This document shows, piece by piece, positions 28,943-46,691 of a DNA stretch of 48,938 nucleotides. The notes beneath the pieces were generated by a model. The model made no database searches. It was not told where the DNA came from and saw only the letters and a program-made list of their open reading frames with translations. Source of the DNA: a virus. Position 1 is the stretch's first letter. Every line of letters starts with the position of its first letter. A program made the translations under genes and the position numbers. The DNA is taken from positions 1-48,938 of the IMG/VR virus record IMGVR_UViG_3300040801_005257; one strand, given 5' to 3'.

Positions 28943-28950
28943 CCCCCCGC

Positions 28951-29003: not shown

Positions 29004-29018
29004 GGCAAGGAGATGAAA

Positions 29019-29771
29019 ATGGATAGAGATAGGGTTCAATTGGCGAACGAATTCTGCGACATGTTGTTCTCGACACTGAGCGCGATCGGTGAATTCCCAC
29101 AAACTGCTGATGTTGATGACGCGCAGTTAGAGGAACCCAGTCGACTCCTTCTGAATCTCATGGCACAGTATGATGACCCCGAGCCCGGCTTTATGGAGTG
29201 GATTTCCAATATGCTTATGCGTCAGGATGGAGAGTCGCGCATGGAGACATTCCCCGAGATGATGATCTTGAAAAAGTGGATCATCGAGTTTGCCGATGAC
29301 TTCGACGATGAGATGTATCGCCATCTTAAAGCTTCGCTTCTGGGGCGCGCCCGCCAGTGGCAGTTTTCTCTCAGGGACAACATCATATCTCTCGCTGAAG
29401 CCGAGGCCCAGTGGGGCCTCCAGAATCTGAGAGGAAACGCAAAGTGCCGACTGCCGATGTGGAAGATCGGCAGGAATTGGGTGACGACGAAGACAGCAAT
29501 GCATGTTGTGTATGGAGAACCATATGAAGAGGAGATAGTCATGAAGAAAGAGGTTTCGATGGATGGCGAGATTTATCTTAAACTCCGGGACGTTATTCCG
29601 GCGCTTAAGGCTCACGGACTGAAACATTTTGCGTGGCACCCGGAAAGCGACCACGCCACCCTCCATGGTGATGTGCTCCTCGCTACTAACAATGCCTTCG
29701 AGGCCGGCGAGATCACCAAAGAGCAGCTCGACCTGGTCTATGAAATCTGCGAGCCTGAGGCGTTACGGTAA
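29019..29771 (+). CDS. Unknown protein, first gene of the modification operon
   Basis: 250 residues from ATG 29019 (AAGGAG seven bases upstream). Acidic and helical in the N-terminal half ('LANEFCDMLFSTLSAIGEFPQ', 'FMEWISNMLMRQDGES'). The last ~77 residues could also be made separately, because an in-frame ATG at 29541 has its own ribosome site (GAGGAG). It has no domain I recognise. As the first gene behind the controlled promoter and upstream of the sulfur and methylation genes, it may belong to the same system or control it. Confidence 0.6.
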   Translation: MDRDRVQLANEFCDMLFSTLSAIGEFPQTADVDDAQLEEPSRLLLNLMAQYDDPEPGFMEWISNMLMRQDGESRMETFPEMMILKKWIIEFADDFDDEMYRHLKASLLGRARQWQFSLRDNIISLAEAEAQWGLQNLRGNAKCRLPMWKIGRNWVTTKTAMHVVYGEPYEEEIVMKKEVSMDGEIYLKLRDVIPALKAHGLKHFAWHPESDHATLHGDVLLATNNAFEAGEITKEQLDLVYEICEPEALR

Positions 29772-29774
29772 TCT

Positions 29775-31782: not shown

Positions 31783-32384
31783 TTATCAATACACCTGCAG
31801 ATTATCTGGAGTGGAGGGATGCTATGTCGCCGGTCTACGTGACCGGTAAGCGCAAACAGCAGATCCACATCCCGTGTGCTAATACCCTGCTCGTGGCGCG
31901 CGAGTTAATTGAGGCCAACACATACAACCCCAACTCCGTCCCGGATACGAAAATGGAGTTGCTCAGGGAAAGCATCGTCGATAACGGCTTCGCTTTCCCT
32001 GTCGTCTGCATCTTCGATCATGACCTAGAGAGGTTCGTCGTCATCGACGGATTTCATAGGTTCCTAATCAGCGGCCCCGATTGGCTGAATATGTCGCATG
32101 TCCCTGTTGCAGTGCTCTCCCACGACGCATCGCAACGGATGATCGCTACATGGCAGTTCAACAAGGCGCGGGGCCACCACCAGGTCGATCTCGACGCCGA
32201 TCTAATCCGTGCGCTGCTACAGCAGGGTATGAAGGATGAGGAGATTTGCCAGCACCTGGGTATTTCGCTGGAAACGCTCTACCGCTACAAGCAGGTCACG
32301 GGCATCGCCGAGCTATTCAAGAACGTGACCTACTCCATGCCATGGGAGATGAAAGAGGTCGAGGATGAAATGGCGATACGGTGA
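31779..32384 (+). CDS. ibrB: IbrB-like ParB-domain protein
   Basis: 201 residues. The ParB/sulfiredoxin-like core is centred on 'RFVVIDGFHRFLI' (VIDGFHR at 88-94). A helix-turn-helix follows ('MKDEEICQHLGISLETLYRYKQ', 150-172). ParB-fold proteins of this family can bind nucleotides and DNA. The pair with the PP-loop protein is typical of IbrA/IbrB, and the four-base overlap shows tight coupling. It would supply DNA targeting or a phosphotransfer step to the IbrA-like partner; which one cannot be read from the sequence. Confidence 0.78.
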   Translation: MIINTPADYLEWRDAMSPVYVTGKRKQQIHIPCANTLLVARELIEANTYNPNSVPDTKMELLRESIVDNGFAFPVVCIFDHDLERFVVIDGFHRFLISGPDWLNMSHVPVAVLSHDASQRMIATWQFNKARGHHQVDLDADLIRALLQQGMKDEEICQHLGISLETLYRYKQVTGIAELFKNVTYSMPWEMKEVEDEMAIR

Positions 32385-33006
32385 CGCCTGGGAGCATTTC
32401 CCCATCGAAGCCGGGGAAGTGTGGGGAACGGACAACGGGAGTCGGGTAGCGGTTCACAACATTTTCAATCCACTGCCTACATTTATGACGGAATCTGACA
32501 TGATCTTCGTCGATCCGCCGTGGAATCAGGGGAACTTAACTTCATTCTACACAAAGGCGTACCGTGACGATTACCAAAACTGGACCGATTTCGAGGATGT
32601 GCTATTCCAGCGCATTCGCGACGTAAATCCGGTGACGTGCTACATCGAAATAGGAAATCAGTACGTTGATGCCTGGTACGCACGGCTGGGGGGATTGTTT
32701 ACTCATCTACAGCGATGGGACGTAGTTTATTATCACAAGCACCCCACCAACATCATCCGAGGAAGTCAGGATGGGCCTACGAGCCACGACTTCGCAGGCA
32801 TGGACGAAGCAGAGGCTATCGAGATGATCGGCGAGGTCGAGGACTATAAGATCCTCGGAGATCTATGCATGGGCCAAGGCCTGGTTGGCGTCGCTGCCTA
32901 TAAGTCTGGTCGGCCCTTCGTAGGCACGGAGTTGAACAAGCGGCGCCTCGCCAACCTGATTCAGAAGACCGCGAAGCTCGGTGCTCACTGGCAACGTTGC
33001 CAGTGA
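32365..33006 (+). CDS. DNA methyltransferase (N6-adenine/N4-cytosine type)
   Basis: 213 residues. It has the catalytic DPPW motif ('MIFVDPPWNQ', 50-53) and, near the C-terminus, the SAM-binding type motif 'LGDLCMGQGLVGVAA' (about 165-178) followed by 'GRPFVGTELNKRRL'. Catalytic motif before SAM motif is the beta-class order. The protein is short and no target-recognition domain is obvious. It overlaps the IbrB-like gene by 20 bases, making it the last member of the operon; two hairpins and a terminator follow. It likely methylates phage DNA, protecting or marking it together with the upstream genes. Confidence 0.8.
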   Translation: MKWRYGDAWEHFPIEAGEVWGTDNGSRVAVHNIFNPLPTFMTESDMIFVDPPWNQGNLTSFYTKAYRDDYQNWTDFEDVLFQRIRDVNPVTCYIEIGNQYVDAWYARLGGLFTHLQRWDVVYYHKHPTNIIRGSQDGPTSHDFAGMDEAEAIEMIGEVEDYKILGDLCMGQGLVGVAAYKSGRPFVGTELNKRRLANLIQKTAKLGAHWQRCQ

Positions 33007-33137: not shown

Positions 33138-33755
33138 TTAATCTCCCGTGCGAGCCATCGCATCGATGTCTGACTGCTCTATGCCAGCTTGTGCAAAAAC
33201 CTCCAACGGATCGACCGCACCAGGCGTAATCCACCCAGTTGTGTAGGGCGTGCGTGTCATATCGAGGTGCAGGTGATCCCCCGTGCGCCAATTCGCGAAC
33301 GTACCCAACAGCCGTCCCGGCTCAACAACATCGCCCTCGCCTACGACGGGCACTATATGAGCATACCGGGTGTAGAGCGGCGCCCCCGAGAACGTGTGCT
33401 CGATCACAACCATTGGAACGCCATACCAGTTGGCCGTCGCGTAAACAACCTCACCCCGCGCGCACGCATGCACGGTCTGGTTCTCGCGCCGCTCAACATC
33501 CCCCCGGCCACCACGATCCAGATTGATGTCAACACCGGTGTGAACATAACCGTCGTTGCGCCTACCGGTTAAATCGTGCCAAACCGCGATGTACCAGGCA
33601 TTGATGGGATACTTCGGATCATAACCAACGGGCAACATCCAACGTGGCGCTTGTGGTTCATCGGGCTGATTCACACCGGATTTGACCAGATCGTAGACGG
33701 CCCACGCCTCGCCGGCCGTCAACGTGAAGCGCTTCAAAAACGTGTCAGTTTCCAT
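33138..33755 (-). CDS. Endolysin, M23 zinc peptidase
   Basis: 205 residues. M23 metal motifs are visible: HxxxD at 'VHTGVDINL' (H72, D76) and HxH at 'GDHLHLDM' (H161, H163), with a further His in 'TRYAHIVPVV'. M23 enzymes cut peptide cross-links of peptidoglycan. The N-terminal ~40 residues look like a short helical tether. No signal peptide is seen, so release needs a holin; candidate holins are the small membrane gene just before it and the one at 6514-6906. ATG 33755 follows GGAGAG. Last gene of the late operon. Confidence 0.85.
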   Translation of the reverse strand: METDTFLKRFTLTAGEAWAVYDLVKSGVNQPDEPQAPRWMLPVGYDPKYPINAWYIAVWHDLTGRRNDGYVHTGVDINLDRGGRGDVERRENQTVHACARGEVVYATANWYGVPMVVIEHTFSGAPLYTRYAHIVPVVGEGDVVEPGRLLGTFANWRTGDHLHLDMTRTPYTTGWITPGAVDPLEVFAQAGIEQSDIDAMARTGD

Positions 33756-33975
33756 TTATCTCTCCTATCATCTTATAATCAGGTATATGAACGGGCGACA
33801 CAGATAAACGCGGATGATACGCGCTTCGTTGTGGCGCACCAAGCCCCGGACCTGGTCGCGGAACCATAAGCAACTTGGCCTGCGCCTCCGGCCCCAAATC
33901 TGGCTCATCAAAGGGTATAACGTGCGCGATGATCAGTATCACTATGATAAAAAGAGCGACGCACGGTCTCATCAT
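33745..33975 (-). CDS. Small membrane protein before the endolysin
   Basis: 76 residues with a hydrophobic N-terminus ('ALFIIVILIIAHVI') and a Pro-rich hydrophilic tail ('VPRPGPGLGAPQRSAYHPRLSVSP'). It could be a spanin/holin-like lysis helper. ATG 33975 follows the previous stop at once (TAG ATG), and its 3' end overlaps the endolysin start by 11 bases. Function inferred from neighbours. Confidence 0.55.
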   Translation of the reverse strand: MMRPCVALFIIVILIIAHVIPFDEPDLGPEAQAKLLMVPRPGPGLGAPQRSAYHPRLSVSPVHIPDYKMIGEINGN

Positions 33976-35172
33976 CTACTCGCTATTTTGATAGACCAAC
34001 GGCATAAAGACCATGTAGCTAATCCTCGGCACCGTTGGGCTGCAATCAATCCCCGCGCACGCCGTCGGCGTCGGGTACGGCGTCTCCTCCCACGGGATCG
34101 GCGTGTAGGCCGGGGTGTACGTTGGCTCATTGGTGGGTTCCGGCGTCGCCGTGGCCTGAGCCAAGTCGATGGCTATCGACGTCCCGCTTGACGTCGTCAG
34201 CGTCTCCGTCAGCGTCCCCGACGTCCAACCGCTGCTCGCCACCGCCCACGTTTTGGTCAGCGCATATTGTGTTGTGCTGATGGCGCTACTCACGGACCAG
34301 GTCAAGGCCGATGTTGATGTCACGACCGACCCAGCGCTAGCCGTGTAGGTGTCCAGCGACAAAACACCGCCCACCCACGTCTCAACCAGCGTAAACGATG
34401 TGCCGTCCGTTGCCGTGATCACGTCCACCACCTGCACCTCATCGCCGGCGACGACGCCTAGTGAAGCATAAAGGTTCCGATCTTCGCCGTTGAGCGCCAA
34501 CGTCTTCTCCCACCTCGTAATATTCGGTGGCTGCACTATCGACGAGAAAAGAGTCAGAGGCGTCCCGCTGAAATCACCAAAGATCAGAGATAATAGCAGT
34601 GCGACGAAGGCCAAAACGCTGCCGAGCACCCCAACCAGGCTTCCGTGACCACGAGCAGAACGTTCTCCGCGATCAAGCCGGTATCCCAGGGCGTCGCGCG
34701 CGCCCGGCACTCCGCGCCACACCGCCAATCGCGCCGACGCCCGCGCCATCGTCCACGCCGCCCCCGGGGGCATCCCCATGCCCATCGCCGCAGAAAGCCC
34801 CGTAGCCAACACATCAGCGCCACCCAGCAAGCCTGCGCAGCCACCAACGTTGACACCCGGCCCGTGAATGATCGCCGCAGCCCCGGCCACCCACAGCGCA
34901 TCCAACAGCACAGTATTTTCGCTGCCATAACAGGCCCCGACGAAGACAACCGTGCCGCGCAAGGAGAGTGCCCTGATCTGCGAGGCGCGCAGCACGATTT
35001 GCCGGTTGTCGTCAAGCCAGCACATACCATCCTCGCTGGGGTGTAAGAAAATCATCAATAAATCCGGGGCGTCATCGAGCTCACAACGTCCTACCTGTAT
35101 CTCCGCACCGGCGCCACCGATCCGCCGGGCGTTCTCTACGAAGCCCTCCGTCGTCACCACTACCGTCTTCAT
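33976..35172 (-). CDS. Caspase/CHAT-like membrane protein with a surface tail
   Basis: 398 residues. The first ~160 residues match a caspase-like fold: catalytic His in 'LLMIFLHPSEDG' (H44) and Cys in 'GTVVFVGACYGSENTVLL' (C81), then 'AGAAAIIHGPG'. A membrane segment follows (about 179-198, 'SLVGVLGSVLAFVALLLSLI'). The outer part is a beta/Ser-Thr-rich domain, a Thr/Pro linker ('ATPEPTNEPTYTPAYTPIP') and a C-terminal end 'YMVFMPLVYQNSE'. That linker and end resemble secreted Chloroflexota proteins. It overlaps the tail-tip gene by one base. The role is unknown; protease or signal protein is the inference. Confidence 0.75.
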   Translation of the reverse strand: MKTVVVTTEGFVENARRIGGAGAEIQVGRCELDDAPDLLMIFLHPSEDGMCWLDDNRQIVLRASQIRALSLRGTVVFVGACYGSENTVLLDALWVAGAAAIIHGPGVNVGGCAGLLGGADVLATGLSAAMGMGMPPGAAWTMARASARLAVWRGVPGARDALGYRLDRGERSARGHGSLVGVLGSVLAFVALLLSLIFGDFSGTPLTLFSSIVQPPNITRWEKTLALNGEDRNLYASLGVVAGDEVQVVDVITATDGTSFTLVETWVGGVLSLDTYTASAGSVVTSTSALTWSVSSAISTTQYALTKTWAVASSGWTSGTLTETLTTSSGTSIAIDLAQATATPEPTNEPTYTPAYTPIPWEETPYPTPTACAGIDCSPTVPRISYMVFMPLVYQNSE

Positions 35173-36593
35173 TACAGCCTCCGCTCCATTGCAGCCAACA
35201 TCACGTCTAAGCGTGAATCCACCCCGCGCGGCACAATATGTACCCCATCCGCCGCCACCTCGGTCTCGGCCACGTGGATGTACGTATCCTCGCCGGGGAT
35301 CACGTCGTGGAGCGTCACCAAATCCCCGGCGCGAATCATCCACGCCGGCCACGCGCTGCTACCGTCCGGCTTATGACACCGCGACTCCAACGATAGGTCC
35401 AAACTCGCCACCGGCCAGGCCCGCTCCTCCAGAAAGACCGTGGCGAGCCGCTCGGCCTCGTCTCGCGTTGTCATCGGCAGCCCCAACGTCATCTCTCGCC
35501 GCCCCCAGCGCGAAAGACTGTCACTATCCGTGATCCACGAAGAGCGCCATCCATCGGGCAACTCGGCGCGGACGGCGTTCACAACGCCATCCCGCCTCCA
35601 ATTTACGCGCCACCGCGCAAGGTCCGAACGCTCCAACCGCCAGGTGGGGGCGGTCTCACTAGGCCACGGCCCAAAGTGTGCCGTACCCTCGTACACGTAG
35701 ACCAGCCACCGCTCGATGCCATCCCCCAACGCCGCCATCTCCTCCAGCGCCGCCAGCATACTGCCACCCTGCCAGGTGGCGCGATCCGCCGCCACACCCG
35801 AGGCCGTCACCACCGCATCCAGAGACGTCGCTGCAAGAATCGCCGTCGCCACGTCGCTGCTCGTCGCCGGATAGACCGTGCGCACCACCACCTGCGTCAA
35901 CCGCACGGTTGCCTCGCCGCCGCCATCCGCCGTAGCTCGTAACGCGACCACCAACCCTGCCGCGTCGCCTACGGTCAACGCCACATCCGTTTCCGCCGCC
36001 GCCGTCGTTGACCAGAGCACCGTCCCGTCACCCTCGCGTATCTCGGCAATCCACGAGCCGCTGGCGATCGTCGCGACAACGTGGGCTTCCAGGCGCACAA
36101 TATCCCCGCCTAACTCAACATCATCCTCTGGGAACGAGACACAACCTTCATCACCAGAGAGAAAACTGCCATTTGCGCCAACAAAGACGCGATTATTATT
36201 GTCAGCCTGGAACCCAGCCAACGGCTGTTCTTCAGCCGTCCACATTGAATAGTCCGGTGTGCTATAAACACGCCAGAGTTCCTCGTCACGCAGCCGTAGT
36301 CCCTCGCCCTCGGCCCAGAGATCAAGCTGCCCCAGCCGCTGGCCCACACCGGAAAGCCCGGCCCCGGCGAGCAGCCCAGACCAAGCCACCTCGGACCAAC
36401 CATAAAACGCTAACTCGTCATCGGCGTCGTGATCTTGCAGCACCCACAGGGTCGGCTCCGCCCCGCCCAGCGAGACCTCCGCCGTCGCAAACCCCACGCC
36501 GGCCCGCGTTGTAAAGCGCCACGATCCGACATACTCGGTCAAATCCAGACGTCCCCAACGGGACGTCTCCGCCAGAATCTGAAGATCGTTCAC
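35172..36593 (-). CDS. Tail-tip/tail-associated protein
   Basis: 473 residues following the distal tail protein with a four-base overlap. Alternating beta strands dominate, with Trp-rich stretches ('WGRLDLTEYVGSWRF'), a central jelly-roll-like region ('ADNNNRVFVGANGSFLSGDEGCVSFPEDD') and a C-terminal 'IRAGDLVTLHDVIPGEDTYIHV'. That last part resembles the hub/baseplate-type domains that close siphovirus tails. Position between Dit-like protein and the surface genes supports a tail-tip function, perhaps with receptor contact. Confidence 0.65.
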   Translation of the reverse strand: MNDLQILAETSRWGRLDLTEYVGSWRFTTRAGVGFATAEVSLGGAEPTLWVLQDHDADDELAFYGWSEVAWSGLLAGAGLSGVGQRLGQLDLWAEGEGLRLRDEELWRVYSTPDYSMWTAEEQPLAGFQADNNNRVFVGANGSFLSGDEGCVSFPEDDVELGGDIVRLEAHVVATIASGSWIAEIREGDGTVLWSTTAAAETDVALTVGDAAGLVVALRATADGGGEATVRLTQVVVRTVYPATSSDVATAILAATSLDAVVTASGVAADRATWQGGSMLAALEEMAALGDGIERWLVYVYEGTAHFGPWPSETAPTWRLERSDLARWRVNWRRDGVVNAVRAELPDGWRSSWITDSDSLSRWGRREMTLGLPMTTRDEAERLATVFLEERAWPVASLDLSLESRCHKPDGSSAWPAWMIRAGDLVTLHDVIPGEDTYIHVAETEVAADGVHIVPRGVDSRLDVMLAAMERRL

Positions 36594-37933
36594 GGTAGCG
36601 TCCTGTAATGTGGACGCGCAAAAACCTGAACGACGCCAGTCCTAAACGCATGTGCGTTTTCACGGTCGTCGCCTAGCGCAAACGTCAGCATCTGTTCCTG
36701 ATCGCCGGGGAGTAGGTTCTCCGGCCAGAGCTGAACAGGATCACCGAACCCGTCTATGATGGGCAGGCGTTCTCCGCCGAAGTCATAGACCAACTCCTCT
36801 CTCCACCCGTCATCCTCCACGCAAGCACCCTGCGCGCAGTTGTAATACCGGAACTGCAACGTGCGGCTCTGTCGCTGCGGGATCAAAAGCAAATAATCCA
36901 GGCTGCCATCTGCTAAACCATCCAACCAGACACGCACAGGATACCGCACCGGATGAACGTACCCGCCCGGCGGGAATGAGAGAATACCAAGATCAGTCCA
37001 ACCGTTGGCGCCGGTCACAGCAGAGCGCGAGCCATATTGCATCCGCGTCAGCTCGTGACCGGAAGCAACACGCCACGTCCCATCTGAAAGATCGCCGTTC
37101 GCTAGAACGCGAAACGGCCCGGTGAAATCGCGTATCGCGTTTTGGGGCATCTCCCAGAGAAAGGCATCCCCCACAGCATACGCCTGATTGCTATATGCCG
37201 TGTTTGGATGAATCGAGATGTCTGTCTCGCTATCCTCCCCCTCCAACGTCATAGCCTGGGGGCGGTCGTTCCAGCCCATATAGATCGTCCGCAGCCGATC
37301 ACCGTCATAGTTGTTCTGCACGCGAATGCGCGCCGGCGCCGGCACATCCCCCTCCGGCGCCTCGACGACAACCCAGTTGCAGTGCGAGGGGTTATCGTCG
37401 TCCGCGTTAGTCACCTGAGCGTAGTCGGCAAAACCATTGCCATCAGGCGTTACGTCGCCGCCATATTGCGTCCAGTTGTTGCGCACTTTGAGCAACGTCT
37501 CGGCGCCGGTCCAGTATGGACCACGCTCCCAACTTACACCAATATGGCTACCACGATCCAGCGTTATCGAGCCGTTATAGAGAGGCGCTTCAAACCAGTC
37601 AGCATGCCGCGCGAGGTCACGAAAGCGCAGCACAACGCGCATATCACGCCGGTCGCTCTCCGCCCATAGTAACGCCCGCTCGAAAGCGGATTCCAGCGCC
37701 CGCACCCCATTCCAGAACGCCGCAGGCGAGAAGCCCACACGCACCGACTCCATCACGTTGAGAGCACTGTGCCCCAGCGGCATACTGCCGCGCCGGCGGC
37801 CCTGCGTGCTATCCACACGCAACGCGGGCGACGCGGGAAAATAGTCGTAAACGTGACTACCAACGTCAATGCACGTCACGGTTTCCCCCGCCGCCGTCCA
37901 CTCGATTCTGCAAACCTGAAATCTCCAGGACAT
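36590..37933 (-). CDS. Distal tail protein-like
   Basis: 447 residues right after the tape measure, where Dit/distal tail proteins sit. The first ~150 residues ('SWRFQVCRIEWTAAGETVTCID', 'GRRRGSMPLGHSALN', 'FEAPLYNGSITLDRGS') form the beta-sandwich expected of a tail-tube cap; the C-terminal half has carbohydrate-binding-like beta repeats ('ARIRVQNNYDGDRLRTIYMGWND'). Long Dit proteins with extra sugar-binding modules occur in siphoviruses. The call is by position and fold pattern. Confidence 0.65.
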   Translation of the reverse strand: MSWRFQVCRIEWTAAGETVTCIDVGSHVYDYFPASPALRVDSTQGRRRGSMPLGHSALNVMESVRVGFSPAAFWNGVRALESAFERALLWAESDRRDMRVVLRFRDLARHADWFEAPLYNGSITLDRGSHIGVSWERGPYWTGAETLLKVRNNWTQYGGDVTPDGNGFADYAQVTNADDDNPSHCNWVVVEAPEGDVPAPARIRVQNNYDGDRLRTIYMGWNDRPQAMTLEGEDSETDISIHPNTAYSNQAYAVGDAFLWEMPQNAIRDFTGPFRVLANGDLSDGTWRVASGHELTRMQYGSRSAVTGANGWTDLGILSFPPGGYVHPVRYPVRVWLDGLADGSLDYLLLIPQRQSRTLQFRYYNCAQGACVEDDGWREELVYDFGGERLPIIDGFGDPVQLWPENLLPGDQEQMLTFALGDDRENAHAFRTGVVQVFARPHYRTLP

Positions 37934-37954
37934 ACGCCTCCTATAGCACGCTCA

Positions 37955-39889
37955 TCAGCGCACGCTCATCGCACGATCGCGGGCGCGCTGCCCCGCGATC
38001 TCACCGATCCGCATCGCCCACGCCTCTGCGTCTAGAGCTGTGTTGATCGTCGGATAGACGTTGATCACCGGCGCCACCGTGCCCCCACCCTCACCGTTGC
38101 GCACCTTGTCCTGCGTCAACGGCCCAAGACGTCGCTCCAAAGAGCGCGTGGTAGCCTGATTCAACACAAATTCTCCGGCATGCACCAATGCCGGTTCAGT
38201 CTGCTGCACGTAACCGCCCGATGCAAATTGATTCATCCCGCTGTTCATCAGCGAATCAATCTCTTGCTGATTCAACCCCGAATCTCCCAACGCCTGCACC
38301 TGTTGTTTGACCATAATATTGATGACTTTCTCGGAGGGGAGACCGTTAACAGCGTCACCGAGACCACTCACTGATCCCGCTGCGGCGTCGGCCTGACCCG
38401 CAGCGACGCCAAAAGAGCTACCCAAGGCAGAAATCTTACCCACACCGCCATCGGATGCATCGGCTGCCTCATCCACCGCGTCCTTAACGGCGCCAACTCG
38501 CAGTGCATAGGTCTCCGCCGTGATTGCGCCGTTGATATACTGCTGTGTCAGACCGTCGATCACTGATTGGCCTGACCTCTCAGCCTCGGTCAGCATGCCG
38601 CTGGTTACCAGCAACTGCTCCTTTGCCTGGGTAAACTCATCCAATGACAGAGACCCCTCGTCCATCGCCTGGCTCAGCGCGTTGATTTGCGCCGCCACCA
38701 GCGACTCCTTGGACATCTCACCGAGGCCCGCCGCCGCATCCAGGAAGGCACTATGTGCGTTCAACGCCGCCTGTTCAGCGTCCCGCAGGGCATCGCGCAG
38801 TTCGTTCTGCTTTGCAACCGCGCCTGCTGTTGCGGACTCAACCCCCGCGATAGCCTGCTGATACTGATCGTGAGCTTGCACAGTCTCATAGGTGCTCTCA
38901 TTAGCATCGGCCTGCATCTCGGCGTAATACTCAGCCTGCGCCGAAAGACGGCTCGTCTCCACTGCCGTCGCTCGCAATGCGTTTTCGTGCTTATCCAACA
39001 GCGTGTTGCCAAAACCCAAGGTGTCGAAGAACGCCGCTACCGTTCCACGCGCATAGCCATATTCTGCGCGAACCTGATTGGTCTTGGTCAGCAAATCCGC
39101 CCATGCACCGATCGCCGGCCCGGCGACCACATCAACATTGCTTTTAAGCGCATCGCTCATGTTCTTGATTTCAGCCCGGAACCGTCCATACGCATCCGTA
39201 GCGCTCTCCGTGCTGTTCCCAGCCTGCTCCAACAGCACATTACCCGCATCCAACAGACCATTCAAAAACGCGATCTGCTTCTCCTCGGCAGAGAGCGCAT
39301 TAACCGACTTACCGATGCTGTCTGCATATGCCTCGTACGCATCACCCTGTTTGACGATGATGCCTAGGTTATCGGCGATCTGCGCGCTCTGTCGCTTGGC
39401 TGCGGTAGCGATGCTTTCGTAGAGGAATGGCACGTCGCCCAGCGTGGGATTCAGCTTCTGCGCTGCCTTTGCCATCTCCAGCAACTCCGGCGCCGCCGCA
39501 GAAAACGCAGCCTGCACCTCGCCGCTCGACCCTGCAACGAGCGTCAGCGTGGAGCCCATCAACGTCATATCGTCCACCGTGCCGCGTGCCGCGCCGCGCA
39601 TCTCGTTGAGGGAGATGCCCAGGCTATCGAAGCTCTCCCGCGTCTGGCGCACGGCGGCCCCGGCCTCGGCGAAGTCGAACGCCTTTTCTCCGACCTCCGC
39701 CATCGTCCTCAGCGCGCCCACCGTCAGATCGATGCCGCTCTTCAGGTCGGTTAGCGACACACTCGCCTTCTTGCTGCCGGACGCGGCCTCGGCGCCGGCT
39801 TTTTCCGTCTGGCCCAACGCATGGTTCACCCGCTGAATATCGTCACTTGCGTCGTCCTGACCGACGAGCCTGAGCTCTATGTCAGACAT
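37955..39889 (-). CDS. Tail tape measure protein
   Basis: 644 residues, the longest tail protein. It is almost wholly helical with Ala/Glu/Gln-rich coils, followed near residue 510 by a Gly/Ala/Ser stretch and, at the C-terminus, hydrophobic and structured residues ('GGYVQQTEPALVHAGEFVLNQATTRSL'). Tape measures set tail length at about 0.15 nm per residue, so a tail near 95 nm is expected. It follows the two-frame chaperone genes, as in other siphoviruses. Confidence 0.85.
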   Translation of the reverse strand: MSDIELRLVGQDDASDDIQRVNHALGQTEKAGAEAASGSKKASVSLTDLKSGIDLTVGALRTMAEVGEKAFDFAEAGAAVRQTRESFDSLGISLNEMRGAARGTVDDMTLMGSTLTLVAGSSGEVQAAFSAAAPELLEMAKAAQKLNPTLGDVPFLYESIATAAKRQSAQIADNLGIIVKQGDAYEAYADSIGKSVNALSAEEKQIAFLNGLLDAGNVLLEQAGNSTESATDAYGRFRAEIKNMSDALKSNVDVVAGPAIGAWADLLTKTNQVRAEYGYARGTVAAFFDTLGFGNTLLDKHENALRATAVETSRLSAQAEYYAEMQADANESTYETVQAHDQYQQAIAGVESATAGAVAKQNELRDALRDAEQAALNAHSAFLDAAAGLGEMSKESLVAAQINALSQAMDEGSLSLDEFTQAKEQLLVTSGMLTEAERSGQSVIDGLTQQYINGAITAETYALRVGAVKDAVDEAADASDGGVGKISALGSSFGVAAGQADAAAGSVSGLGDAVNGLPSEKVINIMVKQQVQALGDSGLNQQEIDSLMNSGMNQFASGGYVQQTEPALVHAGEFVLNQATTRSLERRLGPLTQDKVRNGEGGGTVAPVINVYPTINTALDAEAWAMRIGEIAGQRARDRAMSVR

Positions 39890-39890
39890 A

Positions 39891-40112
39891 TCACATCCTT
39901 CGTATCTTGCTTAACATGCGGCTGATAAAAAGATCGCGCCCCGCACGAACCGCATCTACCTGGTGCAGCTCCCACGGCCCGCAGTGGTAAAGCGCCATCA
40001 GCTCCTGCTCTACCACCTCGCGGGGCACCGGATGCCGGTCGTAGCGCACGGCATCCATTAGATAGATAAAGAACTCACCCTGGCTCTTGCTCGGAGCGAA
40101 AGATGCGGTCGG
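39891..40112 (-). CDS. Tail-assembly chaperone, frameshifted extension
   Basis: An open frame of 73 codons without its own good start, overlapping the end of the upstream gene and ending two bases before the tape-measure start (39889). It reads 'SKSQGEFFIYLMDAVRYDRH' then 'CGPWELHQVDAVRAGRDLF'. This is the standard place of the 'GT' extension of tail chaperones, made by ribosomal frameshifting from the previous gene. The frames differ by +1 (or -2). An internal ATG at 40058 would give a 55-residue free product, so independent translation cannot be excluded. Confidence 0.65.
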   Translation of the reverse strand, partial: PTASFAPSKSQGEFFIYLMDAVRYDRHPVPREVVEQELMALYHCGPWELHQVDAVRAGRDLFISRMLSKIRRM

Positions 40113-40308
40113 TCACGGCCCGGATCATCTCCTTCCGTGCCGCGTTCCACTCCGCCAGCGGCACCGCCGCCATATCCGGCCTCACAACCTTCCGCAACAG
40201 CCTATCTGCCGCATCCAGGTCGCCCGCATCAGCGGCCAACAGATCCGCGACGTCCGCTCCGGTCAACTCCCCAAGATCAATCTGCCACACCCGGCTCTCG
40301 TTATTCAT
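40075..40308 (-). CDS. Tail-assembly chaperone (G-like)
   Basis: 77 residues from ATG 40308 (AGGAAGG upstream). Helical and acidic ('LGELTGADVADLLAADAGDLDAADRLLRKVVRP'), with 'WNAARKEMIRAVTDRIFRS' at the end. In lambda-like phages the short product and its frameshifted longer form together guide tail polymerisation around the tape measure. Position before the tape measure supports this. Confidence 0.75.
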   Translation of the reverse strand: MNNESRVWQIDLGELTGADVADLLAADAGDLDAADRLLRKVVRPDMAAVPLAEWNAARKEMIRAVTDRIFRSEQEPG

Positions 40309-40347
40309 GCACACCTTCCTTACCCATTACTCGTTACTGGTTACTCA

Positions 40348-40749
40348 TCACGAAGATGAATAAGCCCCATCGGAGAACGAATTCAGATTGAATGTCACCG
40401 TGAAAACCACCGCGTCGTTATACTGCACCACGCGGCTCCGATTCGTGATCACCATCGCCCCGGAAATCTCTTGCTGCCCAGCGACCTTGCCCCTTGGGTA
40501 AAATTTAAGCGTGTCTTCCGTGCCAGGAACAAGTGCGTCCCACGCCGCCTCACCATCATCGTCAACAATGGTCATCGAACAACCATTGCGATATGTGATG
40601 TCTCCGGGTATGCTTTGACCATGCGTGTCACCGGCATGCGTTACATCTGGCGCCGGATGATCCTCCGGTATATTGACCTCGCGAACCCCCGTAATTGCGC
40701 CACCACTCGTTAACTCGACCTCCATTGCCTGACCAACATAGTGCGTCAT
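40348..40749 (-). CDS. Major tail tube protein
   Basis: 133 residues, beta-rich: 'AMEVELTSGGAITGVREVNIPE' at the start and 'QEISGAMVITNRSRVVQYNDAVVFTVTFNL' near the end, with a Gly/Ser/Asp loop in the middle. Such proteins stack as hexameric rings to form the tail tube. It precedes the chaperone and follows the tail-terminator gene. ATG 40749 is behind GGGAGG. Confidence 0.75.
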   Translation of the reverse strand: MTHYVGQAMEVELTSGGAITGVREVNIPEDHPAPDVTHAGDTHGQSIPGDITYRNGCSMTIVDDDGEAAWDALVPGTEDTLKFYPRGKVAGQQEISGAMVITNRSRVVQYNDAVVFTVTFNLNSFSDGAYSSS

Positions 40750-40777
40750 AATCGTTCCTCCCTGAAATTGAATGTAA

Positions 40778-41203
40778 TTACGTTCTCACCGTCGCCGTCA
40801 ACCGCAGAACCTCGACCCGGTACTGCACACCGTCCACGAGGTAATAATCCGGCTCCGTCTGGTTCTCCATCTCCAGCGTCGCCCACAGCGCGTGGGTGCG
40901 GTTAGCCTGCACCACTGCCACGGCGGCCTCTAGCAGCGCGTCCAGCATCGCCTCGGCCTCGTCGGCATCGTCACGTTGCCCGCGCCGCACATAGTTGGTA
41001 AGCTGAAAGCGCACGTCGTACCGGTCCGGCGCAAACCCCGCAGCCAACCACTCCCATCCCAGCGGATCGTTGTGCAGCGTGAAGACTGGACTCTTTCCGC
41101 CGAACGTTTTGGGTTGACTGCTGTACCCCGCCACCCACGCACCATTTGCCTGAAACAGCGCCTTCAGCGCCGCCCGTATTGCTCCTCGACCTGGCATCGC
41201 CAT
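40778..41203 (-). CDS. Tail terminator/completion protein (DUF3168-like)
   Basis: 141 residues. An alpha/beta protein with a helical start ('AIRAALKALFQANG'), central 'HNDPLGWEWLAAGFAPDRYDVRFQLTNYVRRG' and end 'YRVEVLRLTATVRT', resembling the small tail-completion family that caps the tube. It overlaps the preceding gene by one base (TAATG). Assignment is by position and pattern. Confidence 0.65.
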   Translation of the reverse strand: MAMPGRGAIRAALKALFQANGAWVAGYSSQPKTFGGKSPVFTLHNDPLGWEWLAAGFAPDRYDVRFQLTNYVRRGQRDDADEAEAMLDALLEAAVAVVQANRTHALWATLEMENQTEPDYYLVDGVQYRVEVLRLTATVRT

Positions 41204-41574
41204 TACCCGTTTGCCCTCCTCACCGCGTCATCAACATATGCCTCCACATCGCCGCGAATCGCGTCACCCTCTTCCTTGACCGTCCGCTCGTAGAATGCGT
41301 GCGAGCCGCCGCGCGCGTGCTCGATGGAGGCATACGCCACGTTTGTAGATACGGAGCCGTAAACCTGGTTGCCTTGCACGCCAACGCGCGGGAAGTGGCT
41401 GTTCTTCAACCTCCCGCTAAGAACGTGCGTAATTGCGATCACATAACGCAGCGCGCGCAGCGTGGCTTTCGCGAATGCCCCGCGCAGACCGCCTCTTGCG
41501 CTCACGTCCTCCAGTAGGCGTTTGAGTCGCGCTTGCGTCTCTGCCAACTGCTTAATTTCAATGTCAACCGTCAT
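41203..41574 (-). CDS. HK97 gp10-like neck protein
   Basis: 123 residues. Helices at the start ('IEIKQLAETQARLKRLLEDVS'), then 'SGRLKNSHFPRVGVQGNQVYGSVSTNVAYASIEH' and a charged C-terminus. The N-terminal helices plus 'VAYASIEHARGG' resemble the HK97 gp10 family that joins head to tail. It overlaps the caspase-like gene by four bases (ATGA), so both are in one translation unit. Confidence 0.7.
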   Translation of the reverse strand: MTVDIEIKQLAETQARLKRLLEDVSARGGLRGAFAKATLRALRYVIAITHVLSGRLKNSHFPRVGVQGNQVYGSVSTNVAYASIEHARGGSHAFYERTVKEEGDAIRGDVEAYVDDAVRRANG

Positions 41575-42122
41575 ACAAGGCTTCTCAATCGCGACGTCGG
41601 TTCGCCCACAATGACAAAGCCCTGATCACGCCCCTTATCTACCTTGTTCTTTGCACGCTCCAACGCCTCGCCTACGGGCGCGCCCCGCTTCAGCGCCCCC
41701 ACCACGCGGCTCATCAGCGCCCCCGCGCTGCCCAGGCCCCGCAGGCGGTCGTAGGTCGGTTTCTGGCTGGCGATCACCGCAGAAGCGCCCAAATCCTGGA
41801 AAATCTCCGGGAAAATCGTTGCCAGGCCCCAACACCCCTCCAAAATCACCACAGAGCCCGCCATAGACGGCGCAACCGTGGATAAAAAGGCGCTGGAGAA
41901 GGCCGGCTGCGTCATTGCAGCGTCGGCGAAGAGCATCTCAGTCTGCGCCGGAGACCCGTGCAGTGCGATGTAAACGAGATCGACATCCCTCAACCTATCA
42001 TAGGGAAAGGTCTGGTCGGAGAGGGGCGGCGCCGTCATCGGGCGACAAAGCACGCCGGCCCGCGCCAGGCCCAGCCAGTTGTTGAACGCGCTCTCGCGGT
42101 AACAGTAGAGTAGTGCCTTCAT
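41571..42122 (-). CDS. Caspase/CHAT-like protein in the neck region
   Basis: 183 residues from ATG 42122, overlapping the peptidase gene upstream by four bases. It has the caspase-like dyad: His in 'DLVYIALHGSPAQ' (H55) and Cys in 'SVVILEGCWGLATIF' (C97). The pattern of hydrophobic strand then HG, and hydrophobic strand then xCxG, is that of CHAT/caspase-fold cysteine peptidases; 'LGASAVIAS' matches the following strand. No membrane segment is seen. Such enzymes are not usual head-tail proteins, so this is a likely accessory gene. The substrate is unknown. Confidence 0.75.
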   Translation of the reverse strand: MKALLYCYRESAFNNWLGLARAGVLCRPMTAPPLSDQTFPYDRLRDVDLVYIALHGSPAQTEMLFADAAMTQPAFSSAFLSTVAPSMAGSVVILEGCWGLATIFPEIFQDLGASAVIASQKPTYDRLRGLGSAGALMSRVVGALKRGAPVGEALERAKNKVDKGRDQGFVIVGEPTSRLRSLV

Positions 42123-43249
42123 CGACGCCTCCGGTAAATCACATACCCACAAGCAACAAGGGTAAATCCGGACACTGTGCCGATTACATCCCACCGTCGT
42201 ATTTGTCGGCGTGTATAGCGTGCTCCCCAGTCCGAGGGAGATTCCCCGACGATCTGACTCCACGCCGCCGAAAAACTCCGCGTATTATCCATCTCGGCGA
42301 TCACGGCCTGTGCATTTCCTAGACCCAGAGCGTCTATCATGTGATATGCCTGTGCATACCACAAGGCGCTGTCGCACCACGCAGAATCACATCGCCAGCG
42401 CATTGTCTCCCAGGAATAGAGCAGACCTTCCCGGCGCGCATCGCGCACCAACTGAATTTCGTCGTCGTGCTCTGCCATCTCATTCGCTACGGCCAGGCCC
42501 TCAGTGAACCAGGAGGGCACATCCAGCCGCTTCGACGTCGGATCGAGCAGGTGCATAATCTCGTGTGGTATGGTGTCGGATGCTAACTCAGAGTTGCCAG
42601 CAACGTACTGTAACGTCACCCCGTACTCGGGGAACGCTATCCCCGAGCTCTCCACAACTGGCGATACCATCCTGTAGAAAGTTTGGTTTGCAAAAATTAT
42701 GACTCTGGGGCGGCTACCATGCTCACGCACCGCATCACCCAAGATCGCTTCGGCGCTCTCATAGCCCGCATCCCCTGCATCCATCCATGGCCCTTCCAGT
42801 CCACGGATATTCCAGTGCACGCAAACGTCAACGTGCATACCAGAATAGCATTGCCATTCAGCGGCCCGACTATTCGGATCAGGTCGCTCAACACTTTCCC
42901 AGGTGGTGCGCACCGGTTGTCCCGTTGTCGCGTCTCTGCCCTGCCAGTGGTAGCGCAACTCAGTAAGGAGCGGAAAATCAGCAACACTCATCCTTCCCTC
43001 GTACACACCAGCGTCGTTGGTAGGCACGATATTCCAATTCTCACCACTCCACGCCACCTCCACGATCAAACGCACAAACATCAGGTCTTGAGGCGGCACC
43101 CAGCGGAAAATCATCTCCTCGGGGATCTCTGCATAGGCGACGGGTTCAACATCGCCGCCGCTGTATGCTCGCACACCGACCGCGCCTGGCAGCAGGAAAC
43201 AGAGCGCTAACAACACTAGCCACTTATGCCTCACACCACACCTCCGCAA
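42119..43249 (-). CDS. Membrane-anchored zinc metallopeptidase (MA-like)
   Basis: 376 residues. A signal peptide at 9-28 ('KWLVLLALCFLLPGAVGVRA') leads to a long outer domain, then the zinc motif HEIMH (H229, E230, H233) and third ligand Glu in 'SWFTEGLAVANE' (E250), as in gluzincin peptidase-MA-like families. A C-terminal membrane segment follows (about 352-370, 'VIGTVSGFTLVACGYVIY'), with a positive end RRRR. It would sit outside the membrane, facing the surface. Its last four bases overlap the caspase-like gene, and it starts 26 bases before the end of the sigma factor gene. Confidence 0.8.
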   Translation of the reverse strand: MRRCGVRHKWLVLLALCFLLPGAVGVRAYSGGDVEPVAYAEIPEEMIFRWVPPQDLMFVRLIVEVAWSGENWNIVPTNDAGVYEGRMSVADFPLLTELRYHWQGRDATTGQPVRTTWESVERPDPNSRAAEWQCYSGMHVDVCVHWNIRGLEGPWMDAGDAGYESAEAILGDAVREHGSRPRVIIFANQTFYRMVSPVVESSGIAFPEYGVTLQYVAGNSELASDTIPHEIMHLLDPTSKRLDVPSWFTEGLAVANEMAEHDDEIQLVRDARREGLLYSWETMRWRCDSAWCDSALWYAQAYHMIDALGLGNAQAVIAEMDNTRSFSAAWSQIVGESPSDWGARYTRRQIRRWDVIGTVSGFTLVACGYVIYRRRR

Positions 43250-43736
43250 AATGGTCTACCGCGCGGCGATAGCGTGACTTCGCCGCCTCCAACGATATAC
43301 ACAGCTCGGCAGCAACGTTTTTGAATTTCATCCCCTCGGCAAAACGTAACATCAGCACCTCCTGATCACGTTCTGACAGATCAGACAGAACTATCCGCAC
43401 CGTTGCCCTGGTCCGATAATCGTTTGTTAGCGGATGGGCATGAGCCGCCTCCAGCCCGACGGTGTCCGGAAGGTGCCCCTTATGACGATAGTAATCGACC
43501 ACCTTGTGACGCAGAATCCCGTGCACCCAGGTCTTGAACGACGAATCCCGGCGCCATCGATGGAATGACCGCGTCGCGGCCAGGAACGTATCCTGGACTA
43601 CGTCGTCCACAGCCTCCGCCGGCAGGCGCATCCGTGCCCGCCGGTAGACAGCCGGTAACGTCCGTTCGCACAACGCGCCGAGCTCGTCGCGGCTCATCCG
43701 GGCGCTACGGGACCTGGTAATAGAGCAAGCGGACAT
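43224..43736 (-). CDS. ECF-type RNA polymerase sigma factor
   Basis: 170 residues. Region 2 is seen in 'DDVVQDTFLAATRSFHRWRRDSSFKTWVHGILRHKVVDYYRHKG' (about 44-87); region 4 in 'LSERDQEVLMLRFAEGMKFKNVAAELCISLEAAKSRYRRA' (120-159), with an HTH for the -35 box. There is no region 1 or 3, so it is an ECF sigma factor. ATG 43736 is preceded by AGGAG and overlaps the end of the previous gene. An ECF sigma factor inside a phage morphogenesis operon is unusual. It could reprogram host promoters or switch on its own cassette. No anti-sigma gene is obvious nearby. Confidence 0.85.
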   Translation of the reverse strand: MSACSITRSRSARMSRDELGALCERTLPAVYRRARMRLPAEAVDDVVQDTFLAATRSFHRWRRDSSFKTWVHGILRHKVVDYYRHKGHLPDTVGLEAAHAHPLTNDYRTRATVRIVLSDLSERDQEVLMLRFAEGMKFKNVAAELCISLEAAKSRYRRAVDHFAEVWCEA

Positions 43737-45201
43737 TCGTCAGCACTCCTGAGATCGTGATCGGATCGGTATATGTGAAATCCATGCCATCAACCGTGAT
43801 CGGCCCGTCGAGATCAAGCCCGGCGCCGTCGGTGTCGAGATTGACGCCTCCTGACGCCGAGACATTGAAGCTGTTCGCCACTGTCGAGCTGTAGACTGCC
43901 GTCCCACTGTCGGCCCAGACGAACGAACCGTCGTGCAGCGCCCGTGCGCCCCGGCCAGCCGCGAAGGAATACGCGCCCGCTGCGGTGTTGGACGTTCCAC
44001 CCGGGACCGCGCCGTAGAGACCGGTCACCTGGTTTTGATAGCCACCCGCCACGGTGCCGTAGGTAGCTGTGATGGAGTTCTCGCCGCCGCCGGCGATGGT
44101 CGCCACCTGGGCAATCGTACTCGCGATGGTGTTGGAGATGCCACCGCCGATGAAGGCATACCCATCAACCTGGCATGCCTGTGTCGCGGTTCCCAGGTCT
44201 TCTGTGAATACCCGGGCGTTGGATATCTCGTTAGCGTAGCCGGAGAAAATCCCGTTGTACGTGCTCGAACACGTTACAACGTGCGTCGATGTAAGACACC
44301 CCGTCGCGGAGTCTTCCAGTAGATATTCATGACTGACATTCAGCGTATGAGAACCAACGATCTTGTTTTCAAAACCACCACCGATAACGCTGTATGTATC
44401 ACCGATGGCGTTACGTTTCCCGCCCGAGATGGCGCTGTAGTCACCTGCGCCGCCACCTAGGTTACGGAGCCAGTCAAATTCGAGCGTATTCGGGTTGCCG
44501 GTCCCGATGGTATTGTATGCACCGCCGCCTATGGCCTTATTAATACCGACTGTTTGGTGATTGTGACTGCCGCCGGCAATTACACTGAGCTGGCTCGTCT
44601 GATTGCCCGATCCGCCGCCAATGAACGAGTAGCTACCATAGTCCGTATTGTCGTACCCGCCGGCTATGGTGGATTGTGCGAAATTTATCTCATTGCTGGT
44701 GCCGCCGCCGATAAAAGAATAGTAGCCGCCCTGCTGAACAATCTGCCGGGCTCCTCCTCCAACCGTTGCGTACCTACCGTAAACTGAGTTCCCCAGGCCA
44801 CCGCCAATCGTCGAGAAATGGCCATGACCCGAGACGACATTAACCTGTACACCACTACCCCACTCGCCGTCGGTGGTCGTACCGCCGCCGCCGATGAATG
44901 CGCCTACGAGACCGTCGGCTACGGCATTGCCTGAATATCCACCATAGATGTTGGGGGACGTCATGACGCCCTGCACCATCAGCCCGCCGCCTGTCACCTG
45001 TGCGCGCACGGTCTGATCCCTAGAGTCTCGGATCACCCCCTCGCCGTAAACGTCGACGTCGCCATCGACGGTGAGATCGTCGAAATAGGCTCCCTGCTGT
45101 ACCTCGGGATCGGGCGTCGTTAAAAACGCAGTGAGCCCCCCGGCCAGCGCCGACACAACCAGACAAACCGTAACCAACGCTATCACGTGTATTCTCTTCA
45201 T
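43705..45201 (-). CDS. YadA-head-like repeat surface protein
   Basis: 498 residues. A signal anchor ('VIALVTVCLVVSALAGGLTAFL') is followed by 'TTPDPEVQQGAYF' and about 350 residues of short repeats of the form xxIGGGxxNxI, as in the left-handed beta-roll heads of YadA-type trimeric adhesins ('YATVGGGARQIVQQGGYYSFIGGGTSNEI', 'AYSFAAGRGARALHDGSFVWADS'). The C-terminal 70 residues are a separate beta domain. It could be a virion-surface fibre or a lysogen surface adhesin. The anchor sequence resembles that of its neighbour at 45205 ('DPEIMQGG'). Confidence 0.8.
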   Translation of the reverse strand: MKRIHVIALVTVCLVVSALAGGLTAFLTTPDPEVQQGAYFDDLTVDGDVDVYGEGVIRDSRDQTVRAQVTGGGLMVQGVMTSPNIYGGYSGNAVADGLVGAFIGGGGTTTDGEWGSGVQVNVVSGHGHFSTIGGGLGNSVYGRYATVGGGARQIVQQGGYYSFIGGGTSNEINFAQSTIAGGYDNTDYGSYSFIGGGSGNQTSQLSVIAGGSHNHQTVGINKAIGGGAYNTIGTGNPNTLEFDWLRNLGGGAGDYSAISGGKRNAIGDTYSVIGGGFENKIVGSHTLNVSHEYLLEDSATGCLTSTHVVTCSSTYNGIFSGYANEISNARVFTEDLGTATQACQVDGYAFIGGGISNTIASTIAQVATIAGGGENSITATYGTVAGGYQNQVTGLYGAVPGGTSNTAAGAYSFAAGRGARALHDGSFVWADSGTAVYSSTVANSFNVSASGGVNLDTDGAGLDLDGPITVDGMDFTYTDPITISGVLTNVRLLYYQVP

Positions 45202-45204
45202 CGC

Positions 45205-45627
45205 TTACCTCAACCCTATCTGCTCTTCGATTGCATCCACAACACCCGGTCCCCATACAACGCGCACGGACTCCATCAGTATTTCTAAATCGTCTGGCTG
45301 CAACGCTGTGGCATGACCAATATCACCATTGACCAAAGAAATAAGCCCAAAGCACCTCGCTCTAGTATCTTGATCTGTCTCTGGATCATTGACACGCCAC
45401 CAAAGCGCGTCCTGAAAAACCTTCCTGAACGTCAGCTCCTGCGCCGGTATATTCTGAATAGGATCCTCATATTTCAGCAGAACTGATCCGAGCGGTACCG
45501 GAATCGGCGTCGGCGTAGCACCCCCCTGCATAATCTCCGGGTCGCCGCTTTGCGCCAGTAGCGCTACCAGTGCCACGAACAAGCCCACCAATAAGCCGAC
45601 AAGTCCCCATAGATAGTTGCGTTTCAT
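45205..45627 (-). CDS. Membrane-anchored protein with Thr/Pro linker
   Basis: 140 residues. An N-terminal anchor ('WGLVGLLVGLFVALVALLA'), the 'GDPEIMQGGATPTPIPVP' linker, then a helical ~90-residue domain ('QELTFRKVFQDALWWRVNDPETDQDTRARCF'). The N-terminus resembles that of the repeat protein next door, so they are probably displayed on the same surface. No enzyme motif is visible. Confidence 0.6.
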   Translation of the reverse strand: MKRNYLWGLVGLLVGLFVALVALLAQSGDPEIMQGGATPTPIPVPLGSVLLKYEDPIQNIPAQELTFRKVFQDALWWRVNDPETDQDTRARCFGLISLVNGDIGHATALQPDDLEILMESVRVVWGPGVVDAIEEQIGLR

Positions 45628-45636
45628 ACAGCCCCC

Positions 45637-46050
45637 TTATGCCAACTCCAAATAGGTCACGACCAGGTAGCCTGCGCCCTGTGTCGCCGCCCCCTGATCC
45701 CACGTCGCGACGATCCCTGTTTCTAGCGTTGTCCTGACTGGATCGCCGGCAATCCGCGCCACACCTGGCGCGTCCTCGACCAACTCGTGTTGATGATTGT
45801 TGATGATCCAGTCGGCGTCGCCGGCTTTGCCCAACTCAAAGGACGGCGGCGCGTCCCACGCTGTGGTGCGCACGACCACGGCGTCCAGGATCAAACAGTT
45901 CTCCGGCACGGTGAAGACTACGCCGGTGCTGTCGGTGTACGAGATCGCCGCCACCAACTGCTGCACGGTGCGCAGGCTTGCCAGCTCTATCAAAACCTGC
46001 GTGACGACGTCGCTGTCGATAACGGGCGCCTTCTTGATGTTGATCGGCAT
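45637..46050 (-). CDS. Beta-rich accessory capsid or neck protein
   Basis: 137 residues from ATG 46050 (GGAGG before it). Beta strands dominate ('TGVVFTVPENCLILDAVVVRTTAW', 'GAGYLVVTYLELA'). Its C-terminal pattern is like the outer domain of the decoration protein at 48224, so it may decorate the capsid or be a neck/tail protein. The position between neck genes and the surface cassette leaves this open. Confidence 0.5.
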   Translation of the reverse strand: MPINIKKAPVIDSDVVTQVLIELASLRTVQQLVAAISYTDSTGVVFTVPENCLILDAVVVRTTAWDAPPSFELGKAGDADWIINNHQHELVEDAPGVARIAGDPVRTTLETGIVATWDQGAATQGAGYLVVTYLELA

Positions 46051-46060
46051 CACAACCTCC

Positions 46061-46360
46061 TTACGGCACGAAGATGGTCACGGTGACTTTGACGTCCACG
46101 TCGCCAGAACGCACCATCTTCATCCTGCGGCAGTCGTTCTCGCCGTAGACCTGCCCAAGCCCCTTGTCCTCCACATAATGCCCCTCATCGTTCGTCGGCT
46201 CATCGCCGGTCATCAGAACGTTGATAGGGCCGCCGTGGGGCGTCAACTCGACCTGGACGACGTCCTCCATATCACCCTCGGTAAAACCGCAGTCAAACAG
46301 CGTTTTGCCGCTGTCGGTCGCGGTACAGTACAGCGTCTTTCGCGCAGTCAACGTATCCAT
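46061..46360 (-). CDS. Small beta-rich neck-region protein
   Basis: 99 residues from ATG 46360, behind GAGGTGAG. It has a repeated acidic/aromatic pattern ('CTATDSGKTLFDCGFTEGDMEDVVQVELTPHGG') and a beta end ('DVDVKVTVTIFVP'). It is among head-tail joining genes, but I recognise no specific family. A longer start upstream would run into the previous gene and is not needed. Confidence 0.5.
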   Translation of the reverse strand: MDTLTARKTLYCTATDSGKTLFDCGFTEGDMEDVVQVELTPHGGPINVLMTGDEPTNDEGHYVEDKGLGQVYGENDCRRMKMVRSGDVDVKVTVTIFVP

Positions 46361-46367
46361 GCTCACC

Positions 46368-46691
46368 TCACTTAATCTCTTCCACGACCACCCGGAGGAA
46401 GTTCTCTGTAACCTCCGGCCAGGGCCATTCCCCAACCCATCGGATGACATACTCAACGCCGCCTACGACAAGGTGGTCGCCCTCCAGGATGTCCACAGCG
46501 GGGCAGTAGGTCTCCTTCGCCTCGCGGGGCGAGTTGAGCCCCACCGTCTCGGCAATGTCCGCGCCCACCGGCATCAACGCCATAATGGACACCGACGCCA
46601 GATGTGTCTCCATCTCCCCCACACGCCCAGCGACAGCCGCCGGGGAGCGCTTTGTGCTTGCCGTCACGGTACAAAAGTCCAATGCGCTCAT
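46368..46691 (-). CDS. Head-closure/stopper-like protein
   Basis: 107 residues. A beta-rich protein with 'TVTASTKRSPAAVAGRVGEMETHL' and 'CPAVDILEGDHLVVGGVEYVIRWVGEW', the pattern of small head-closure proteins that plug the connector. It follows the connector gene and begins four bases after its stop. Assignment by position and shape. Confidence 0.65.
   Translation of the reverse strand: MSALDFCTVTASTKRSPAAVAGRVGEMETHLASVSIMALMPVGADIAETVGLNSPREAKETYCPAVDILEGDHLVVGGVEYVIRWVGEWPWPEVTENFLRVVVEEIK

Follow-up and report, generated by a model that had tools for sequence, protein, structure and literature searches.

Peptidases of the CHAT type are known from bacterial signalling and from CRISPR-linked immunity. 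In type III-E CRISPR systems, transcription is altered when Csx29, a CHAT peptidase, cleaves Csx30, a protein that inhibits an extracytoplasmic function (ECF) sigma factor (PMC10028731). Here we describe two proteins, P0001 (CHAT1) and P0002 (CHAT2), from a virus record of IMG/VR (IMGVR_UViG_3300040801_005257, 48,938 bases; this whole stretch of DNA is the window). The window carries a terminal direct repeat that is exact over 113 bp (1-113 = 48826-48938), which indicates that the phage genome, about 48.8 kb long, is complete and circularly permuted. Its late genes lie on the minus strand. Each of the two proteins, encoded by the phage, contains a peptidase domain of CHAT type (caspase/separase clan) in which a His-Cys pair is conserved. 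In the open-licence literature searched, no paper on phage-encoded CHAT proteins was found; the CHAT peptidases described there belong to CRISPR-linked and other bacterial systems. The two genes are as follows.

33976..35172, minus strand: P0001 (CHAT1), 398 amino acids; CHAT domain 1-170 (H44, C81), membrane helix 179-197, outer domain at about 200-340, Pro/Thr-rich linker, C-terminal MPLVYQ tail.
41571..42122, minus strand: P0002 (CHAT2), 183 amino acids; soluble, with a single CHAT-type domain (H55, C97).

A preliminary description, made from the sequence alone, had pointed out two open reading frames (ORFs) with a hydrophobic strand ending in His, a strand with Cys and an alanine-rich strand, and both are indeed present, on the minus strand. 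The motifs are, in order, DLLMIFLH44-P, VVFVGAC81YG and GAAAIIHG in P0001, and DLVYIALH55-G, VVILEGC97WG and GASAVIAS in P0002, which has no membrane segment. A search with the alignment of the two proteins revealed one relative, locus L085, in the phage record G439 (64.6 kb), which encodes an orthologue of each protein. The starts of P0001 and P0002 match those of the orthologues, which likewise begin with MKxL, and the His/Cys pair is kept in all four proteins (H44/C81 in P0001, H55/C97 in P0002, H61/C99 and H55/C94 in the G439 orthologues). The spacing from His to Cys is 42 residues in P0002 and 37 in P0001, while in Craspase proteases it is 42-43 (H585/C627, PMC9729208; H615/C658, PMC10028731). 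The His is followed by Gly in P0002 and its orthologue, and by Pro in P0001 and its orthologue. When the N-terminal domain of P0001 was aligned with P0002, His paired with His and Cys with Cys, and the local score was 68 (shuffled mean 31.6, standard deviation 5.4; none of 1000 shuffles as high), so by sequence comparison the two proteins are paralogues.

The family assignment was examined with a profile of 41 diverse cellular CHAT domains, with 1200 shuffles as control. P0002 (E-value = 1.2e-4) and the two orthologues (E-value = 1.1e-3 and 4.6e-3) scored above all of the shuffles, and P0001 alone reached an E-value of 0.11, a level which some shuffles also attained. An earlier profile, built from closely related TPR-CHAT proteins, was too narrow and discriminated nothing. 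In hhalign comparisons with the 41 cellular domains, the four-protein profile scored 91%, the P0002 pair 94% and the P0001 pair 74%; column-shuffled versions remained at or below 5%, or 0.7% in the case of the four-protein profile, and five control pairs drawn from other proteins in the gene set described below stayed at or below 0.7%. Among 24,736 Pfam models, CHAT was the sole family matched by P0002 (E-value = 2.5e-4, 21 bits). P0001 had no Pfam match, the P0002 orthologue in L085 had no Pfam CHAT match, and the P0001 orthologue in G439 matched only PKD. Because the Pfam scores are under the cut-off or nil, P0001 and P0002 are CHAT-like proteins outside the curated limit of PF12770. Neither protein matched the C14 caspase/metacaspase family (PF00656) in a Pfam scan with E-values up to 1.

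For structure comparison, residues 1-175 of P0001 were modelled by AlphaFold2 (AF2) from an alignment with P0002 and one orthologue (predicted local distance difference test score, pLDDT, 81.5; predicted template modelling score 0.83). The best matches of this domain in the Protein Data Bank (PDB) are the TPR-CHAT/Csx29 chains of Craspase (E-value = 4.5e-5 to 2e-4; query template modelling score, TM, 0.52-0.56), and further matches include the transmembrane anti-sigma factor DdvA, in fifth place, and separase (query TM 0.49). Among predicted viral proteins, none matches the model at an E-value of 0.001. On this model the P0001 domain is a caspase-type (clan CD) alpha/beta fold. The AF2 model of P0002, whose alignment consisted of very distant rows, is poor (pLDDT 43), and its PDB matches, which are flavodoxins, were discarded as the model is uninformative. 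In this way, the CHAT/caspase-fold layout proposed in the preliminary description is borne out by the P0001 model, its Craspase and separase matches, the family profile match and the dyad in both orthologue pairs, and the His/Cys conservation holds; a caspase fold by structure prediction was obtained for the P0001 domain, and the P0002 model is too poor to bear on this. That the resemblance is due to chance, the two being other alpha/beta proteins without a caspase fold, is extremely unlikely: the noise-level score of P0001 alone and the flavodoxin matches of P0002 would agree with it, but against it stand the confident P0001 model, whose best-matching solved structures are CHAT and separase, as well as the profile matches and the conserved dyad.

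The preliminary description regarded P0002 as a soluble protein among neck genes. Its solubility and location stand, but the gene does not belong to the neck genes; it is the last of seven inserted genes, and its travelling companions, an ECF sigma factor, an HExxH peptidase and surface proteins, had been missed. The head-closure and gp10 genes adjoin directly in six relatives (L003, L009, L011, L012, L023 and L027). Because the region is an insert, a structural role of P0002 deduced from its neck position is rejected. The insert and its other genes are listed below.

41574..46368, minus strand: insert between the head-closure and gp10 genes, 4.8 kb, seven genes, P0002 last.
46061..46456, minus strand: seventh insert gene, with no homologue in the loci of relatives or among the L085 matches.
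45637..46053, minus strand: opens the shared set of six genes; 138 amino acids, without membrane segment; G439 orthologue 41% identical.
45205..45627, minus strand: small N-terminally membrane-anchored protein, 140 amino acids, membrane segment 6-24; G439 orthologue 36%.
43705..45201, minus strand: N-terminally membrane-anchored protein, 498 amino acids, membrane segment 6-24, glycine-rich IGGG repeats, adhesin-head-like, no Pfam match; G439 orthologue 48%.
43224..43736, minus strand: ECF-type sigma factor with regions 2 and 4 (Pfam Sigma70_r2 4.8e-13, r4 6.4e-10; TIGR02937 over cut-off); G439 orthologue 36%.
42119..43249, minus strand: secreted or membrane-anchored HExxH peptidase (MA clan), 376 amino acids, with signal sequence and HEIMH at 229 (Peptidase_MA_2, E-value = 2.9e-5); G439 orthologue 36%, which also has HEIMH and exceeds the Pfam cut-off.

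Six of these genes, including P0002 (54% identity), recur in G439 in the same order and orientation. There they are flanked by an S78 prohead protease and an ordinary HK97-type capsid gene, both unrelated to the head genes of the window. The P0001 orthologue in G439 (L089:371-1981, minus strand; 43% in the best segment, E-value = 8e-48) occupies the same place, after tail genes that are 42-46% identical to those of the window, and keeps the layout of CHAT domain, membrane helix, outer domain and Pro/Thr-rich linker, with an extra outer PKD domain that is absent from P0001. Since each protein is nearer to its orthologue than to its paralogue, the duplication predates the split of the two phages and the pair stayed together. 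The question raised in the preliminary description, whether the two proteins remain together in a related phage, is thus answered positively for G439.

A related capsid gene is present at 40 loci, and P0001 and P0002 are both absent from all 40 of these capsid-relative records, including relatives whose capsid proteins are 46-72% identical; the HExxH peptidase is absent from the 23 capsid-relative records searched for it (23/23) and from the L050 record. P0001 and P0002 are accessory rather than core virion genes. These data bear on the earlier suggestion that the pair processes virion proteins, by cutting capsid or tail proteins in assembly or by riding in the virion. Both genes lie within the structural run, and conserved tail genes precede P0001 in the window and its orthologue in G439, as would be expected. 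On the other hand, G439 has its own S78 prohead protease, the capsid relatives manage without the pair, the genes that flank P0002 are unrelated between the two phages, and P0001 carries a membrane segment. Known prohead protease families (S78, S14, S49 and the like) are unmatched by P0001 or P0002. Given the separate, ordinary prohead protease of G439 and the capsid relatives without the pair, a function in virion maturation is disfavoured, and we consider it quite unlikely. One capsid relative at 50% identity, L008, sits on a contig of a Burkholderiaceae metagenome-assembled genome (MAG), either as a prophage or as a misbinned phage contig.

Searches in larger collections yielded little. No convincing match was obtained when P0001, P0002 or other members of the set were compared by tblastn with 50,697 phage records, or when P0002 and the HExxH peptidase were compared with 72,556 plasmids, and neither P0001 nor P0002, used singly, matched anything in the viral and genome collections scanned. 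One P0002 match (E-value = 6.9e-4) in 398 genomes from the phylum of the MAG with the related capsid gene lies inside an unrelated open frame and was judged to be chance. A cellular CHAT query against the 50,697 phage records hit only MT836801.1:1316-2002, weakly (24.5%, E-value = 5e-3), in an unannotated 8.7-kb faecal phage. Neither these phage records nor the literature searched contain a close precedent for such a pair.

As had been described before, P0001 has a membrane segment followed by an outer domain. The segment (179-197) is single and has positive residues on the CHAT side, so the CHAT domain is predicted to be inside and the other domain outside the membrane. The C-terminal tails MPLVYQ and LPMIMQ presumably recall those of secreted proteins of Chloroflexota. 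The start codon of P0001 overlaps the last base of the upstream tail gene, and the gene is followed by the features below.

33745..33975, minus strand: ORF of 76 amino acids with an N-terminal hydrophobic segment, between CHAT1 and M23; possibly a holin- or spanin-like gene.
33138..33755, minus strand: M23 peptidase, probable endolysin (Peptidase_M23, E-value = 8.3e-11), the final gene of the run.
33076-33045: stem-loop terminator-like site after the M23 gene, from the terminator scan.

This position, between the last tail gene and a hydrophobic ORF, an M23 gene and a terminator-like site, is the usual place of lysis genes, and it leads to the main rival explanation: lysis or host killing, in which the M23 enzyme, together with the membrane-anchored peptidase and the two CHAT proteins, would act as an effector that breaks up the host envelope or kills the cell as infection ends. 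Caspase-like peptidases act in bacterial death systems (PMC12805718), which favours this possibility. However, in G439 nothing resembling an M23 or lysin gene was detected behind the P0001 orthologue, the sigma factor and the adhesin-like proteins are not lysis parts, and the gene set is missing from most relatives. We regard lysis or host killing as rather unlikely.

The genes throughout the six-gene set overlap or lie no more than 9 nt apart, ribosome sites are found ahead of most starts, and no minus-strand promoter-like site was detected within the set. From this tight embedding in the late run, the lack of an internal promoter-like site, the abutment of P0001 with the tail gene, the M23 gene and the terminator-like site, we infer that both CHAT genes are expressed late. 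The timing also concerns another explanation, in which the single-domain CHATs would serve superinfection exclusion, counter-defence or as decoys, binding, mimicking or cutting CHAT parts of host immunity, or guarding the lysogen. The window encodes tyrosine recombinases, ParA and an FtsK-like protein, so the phage looks temperate; CHAT peptidases function in host immunity (PMC10028731), and two further phages carry a third type of CHAT protein, which has a membrane segment, upstream of terminase. All of these are consistent with such a role, but the tight late-run embedding without an own promoter-like site speaks against expression in the lysogen, and a pure decoy needs no His-Cys pair, yet the pair is kept in both phages. 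This explanation appears improbable.

The reading which we prefer is a late-made, host-directed and regulated proteolytic switch that perhaps controls the ECF sigma factor, and we give it about an even chance. The CHAT proteins would be produced late in infection and would act on the host cell through limited proteolysis. Cleavage of a regulator by a CHAT protein would free or control the ECF sigma factor, which might then drive a late gene set, e.g. the surface proteins and the peptidase, and P0001 could couple a cue from outside or from the envelope to the same cleavage. In function, the nearest precedent is the Csx29-Csx30 pathway of type III-E CRISPR, and the presence of DdvA among the fold matches of P0001 may likewise point toward the sigma link.

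Several points weigh against this reading. The gene set has no recognisable anti-sigma protein, Csx30-like or other, so the sigma link is hypothetical; no target promoter was found for the sigma factor, and a rough ECF-type motif search gave scattered matches without value; and the host targets are guesses. Moreover, the six-gene set is known from two phages only, the Pfam score of P0002 is below the curated 24-bit cut-off, its AF2 model is poor, the His-Gly usual in CHATs is His-Pro in P0001, and peptidase catalysis by the two proteins is predicted from sequence and model. A more specific form of the preferred reading, that of a CRISPR-free, phage-owned counterpart of Craspase-sigma control, in which a soluble and a transmembrane CHAT would govern, late in infection, both a surface programme and the ECF sigma factor, and the genes would travel as one block between phages that differ in their heads, is possible and we hold it only tentatively.

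Other features of the window were also noted. Four anchored proteins of the two phages (45205-45627 and 43705-45201 in the window; L085:6477-6896 and L085:10428-11243) carry, directly behind their N-terminal membrane segments, the motif PE[IV]xQG (VE in one). In the other ORFs scanned E[IV]xQG is rare, and PE[IV]xQG might be the remnant of an anchor or serve in processing. The protein preceding the capsid gene spans the record ends (1-113 / 48826-48938). A plus-strand island (26148-33006, plus strand) encodes a helix-turn-helix (HTH) protein, an SNF2 helicase, a PAPS-reductase domain with DUF3440, a second HTH protein (ParB-like from reading) and a probable DNA methylase, and is possibly a DNA modification or defence set.

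Comparison with known systems shows both shared and distinct features. The TPR-CHAT/Csx29 type III-E system (Craspase, CASP; with Csx30 and the ECF-type CASP-sigma) resembles the phage locus in CHAT fold, His-Cys spacing and the presence of an ECF sigma factor in the locus. The phage differs in that P0001 and P0002 have no TPR part and the set proteins scanned include no Cas7-11 and no recognisable Csx30 or Csx31, and in having the late-run setting, the surface proteins, the HExxH peptidase and a further, membrane-spanning CHAT. DdvS/DdvA of Myxococcus xanthus (8rw5) is alike in placing a fold related to the P0001 CHAT domain in a membrane protein and in its link to an ECF sigma factor, but there is no sequence match and no anti-sigma domain is recognised in P0001. 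Separase, a eukaryotic clan CD peptidase, belongs to the same fold class by structure search, while the phage protein is a single small domain with no sequence match to it. Among viruses, two giant-virus proteins annotated with a caspase domain (BFVD A0A5J6VJD2 and A0A5K0U9P7) are very weak fold matches (E-value = 0.45-0.5) and come from viruses of eukaryotes. The CHAT proteins L023:1518-2423 and L050:7917-8732 are, like P0001, phage-encoded with a membrane segment after the CHAT domain and keep His and Cys. Unlike P0001 and P0002, to which they have no significant similarity, they are of another subtype, lie upstream of terminase and occur without the six-gene set. These two are 46-53% identical to each other; L023 has a coiled coil, L050 passes the Pfam CHAT cut-off, and one of the phages is a capsid relative. 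We rate the pair as a peptidase fold already known that here stands in a new setting, among new neighbour genes. A pair conserved among phage late genes beside an ECF sigma factor would mean that phages own CHAT machinery, used offensively or for regulation, and would offer a small testable system for the activation and substrates of single-domain CHAT peptidases, which may also bear on the origin of Craspase-sigma circuits.

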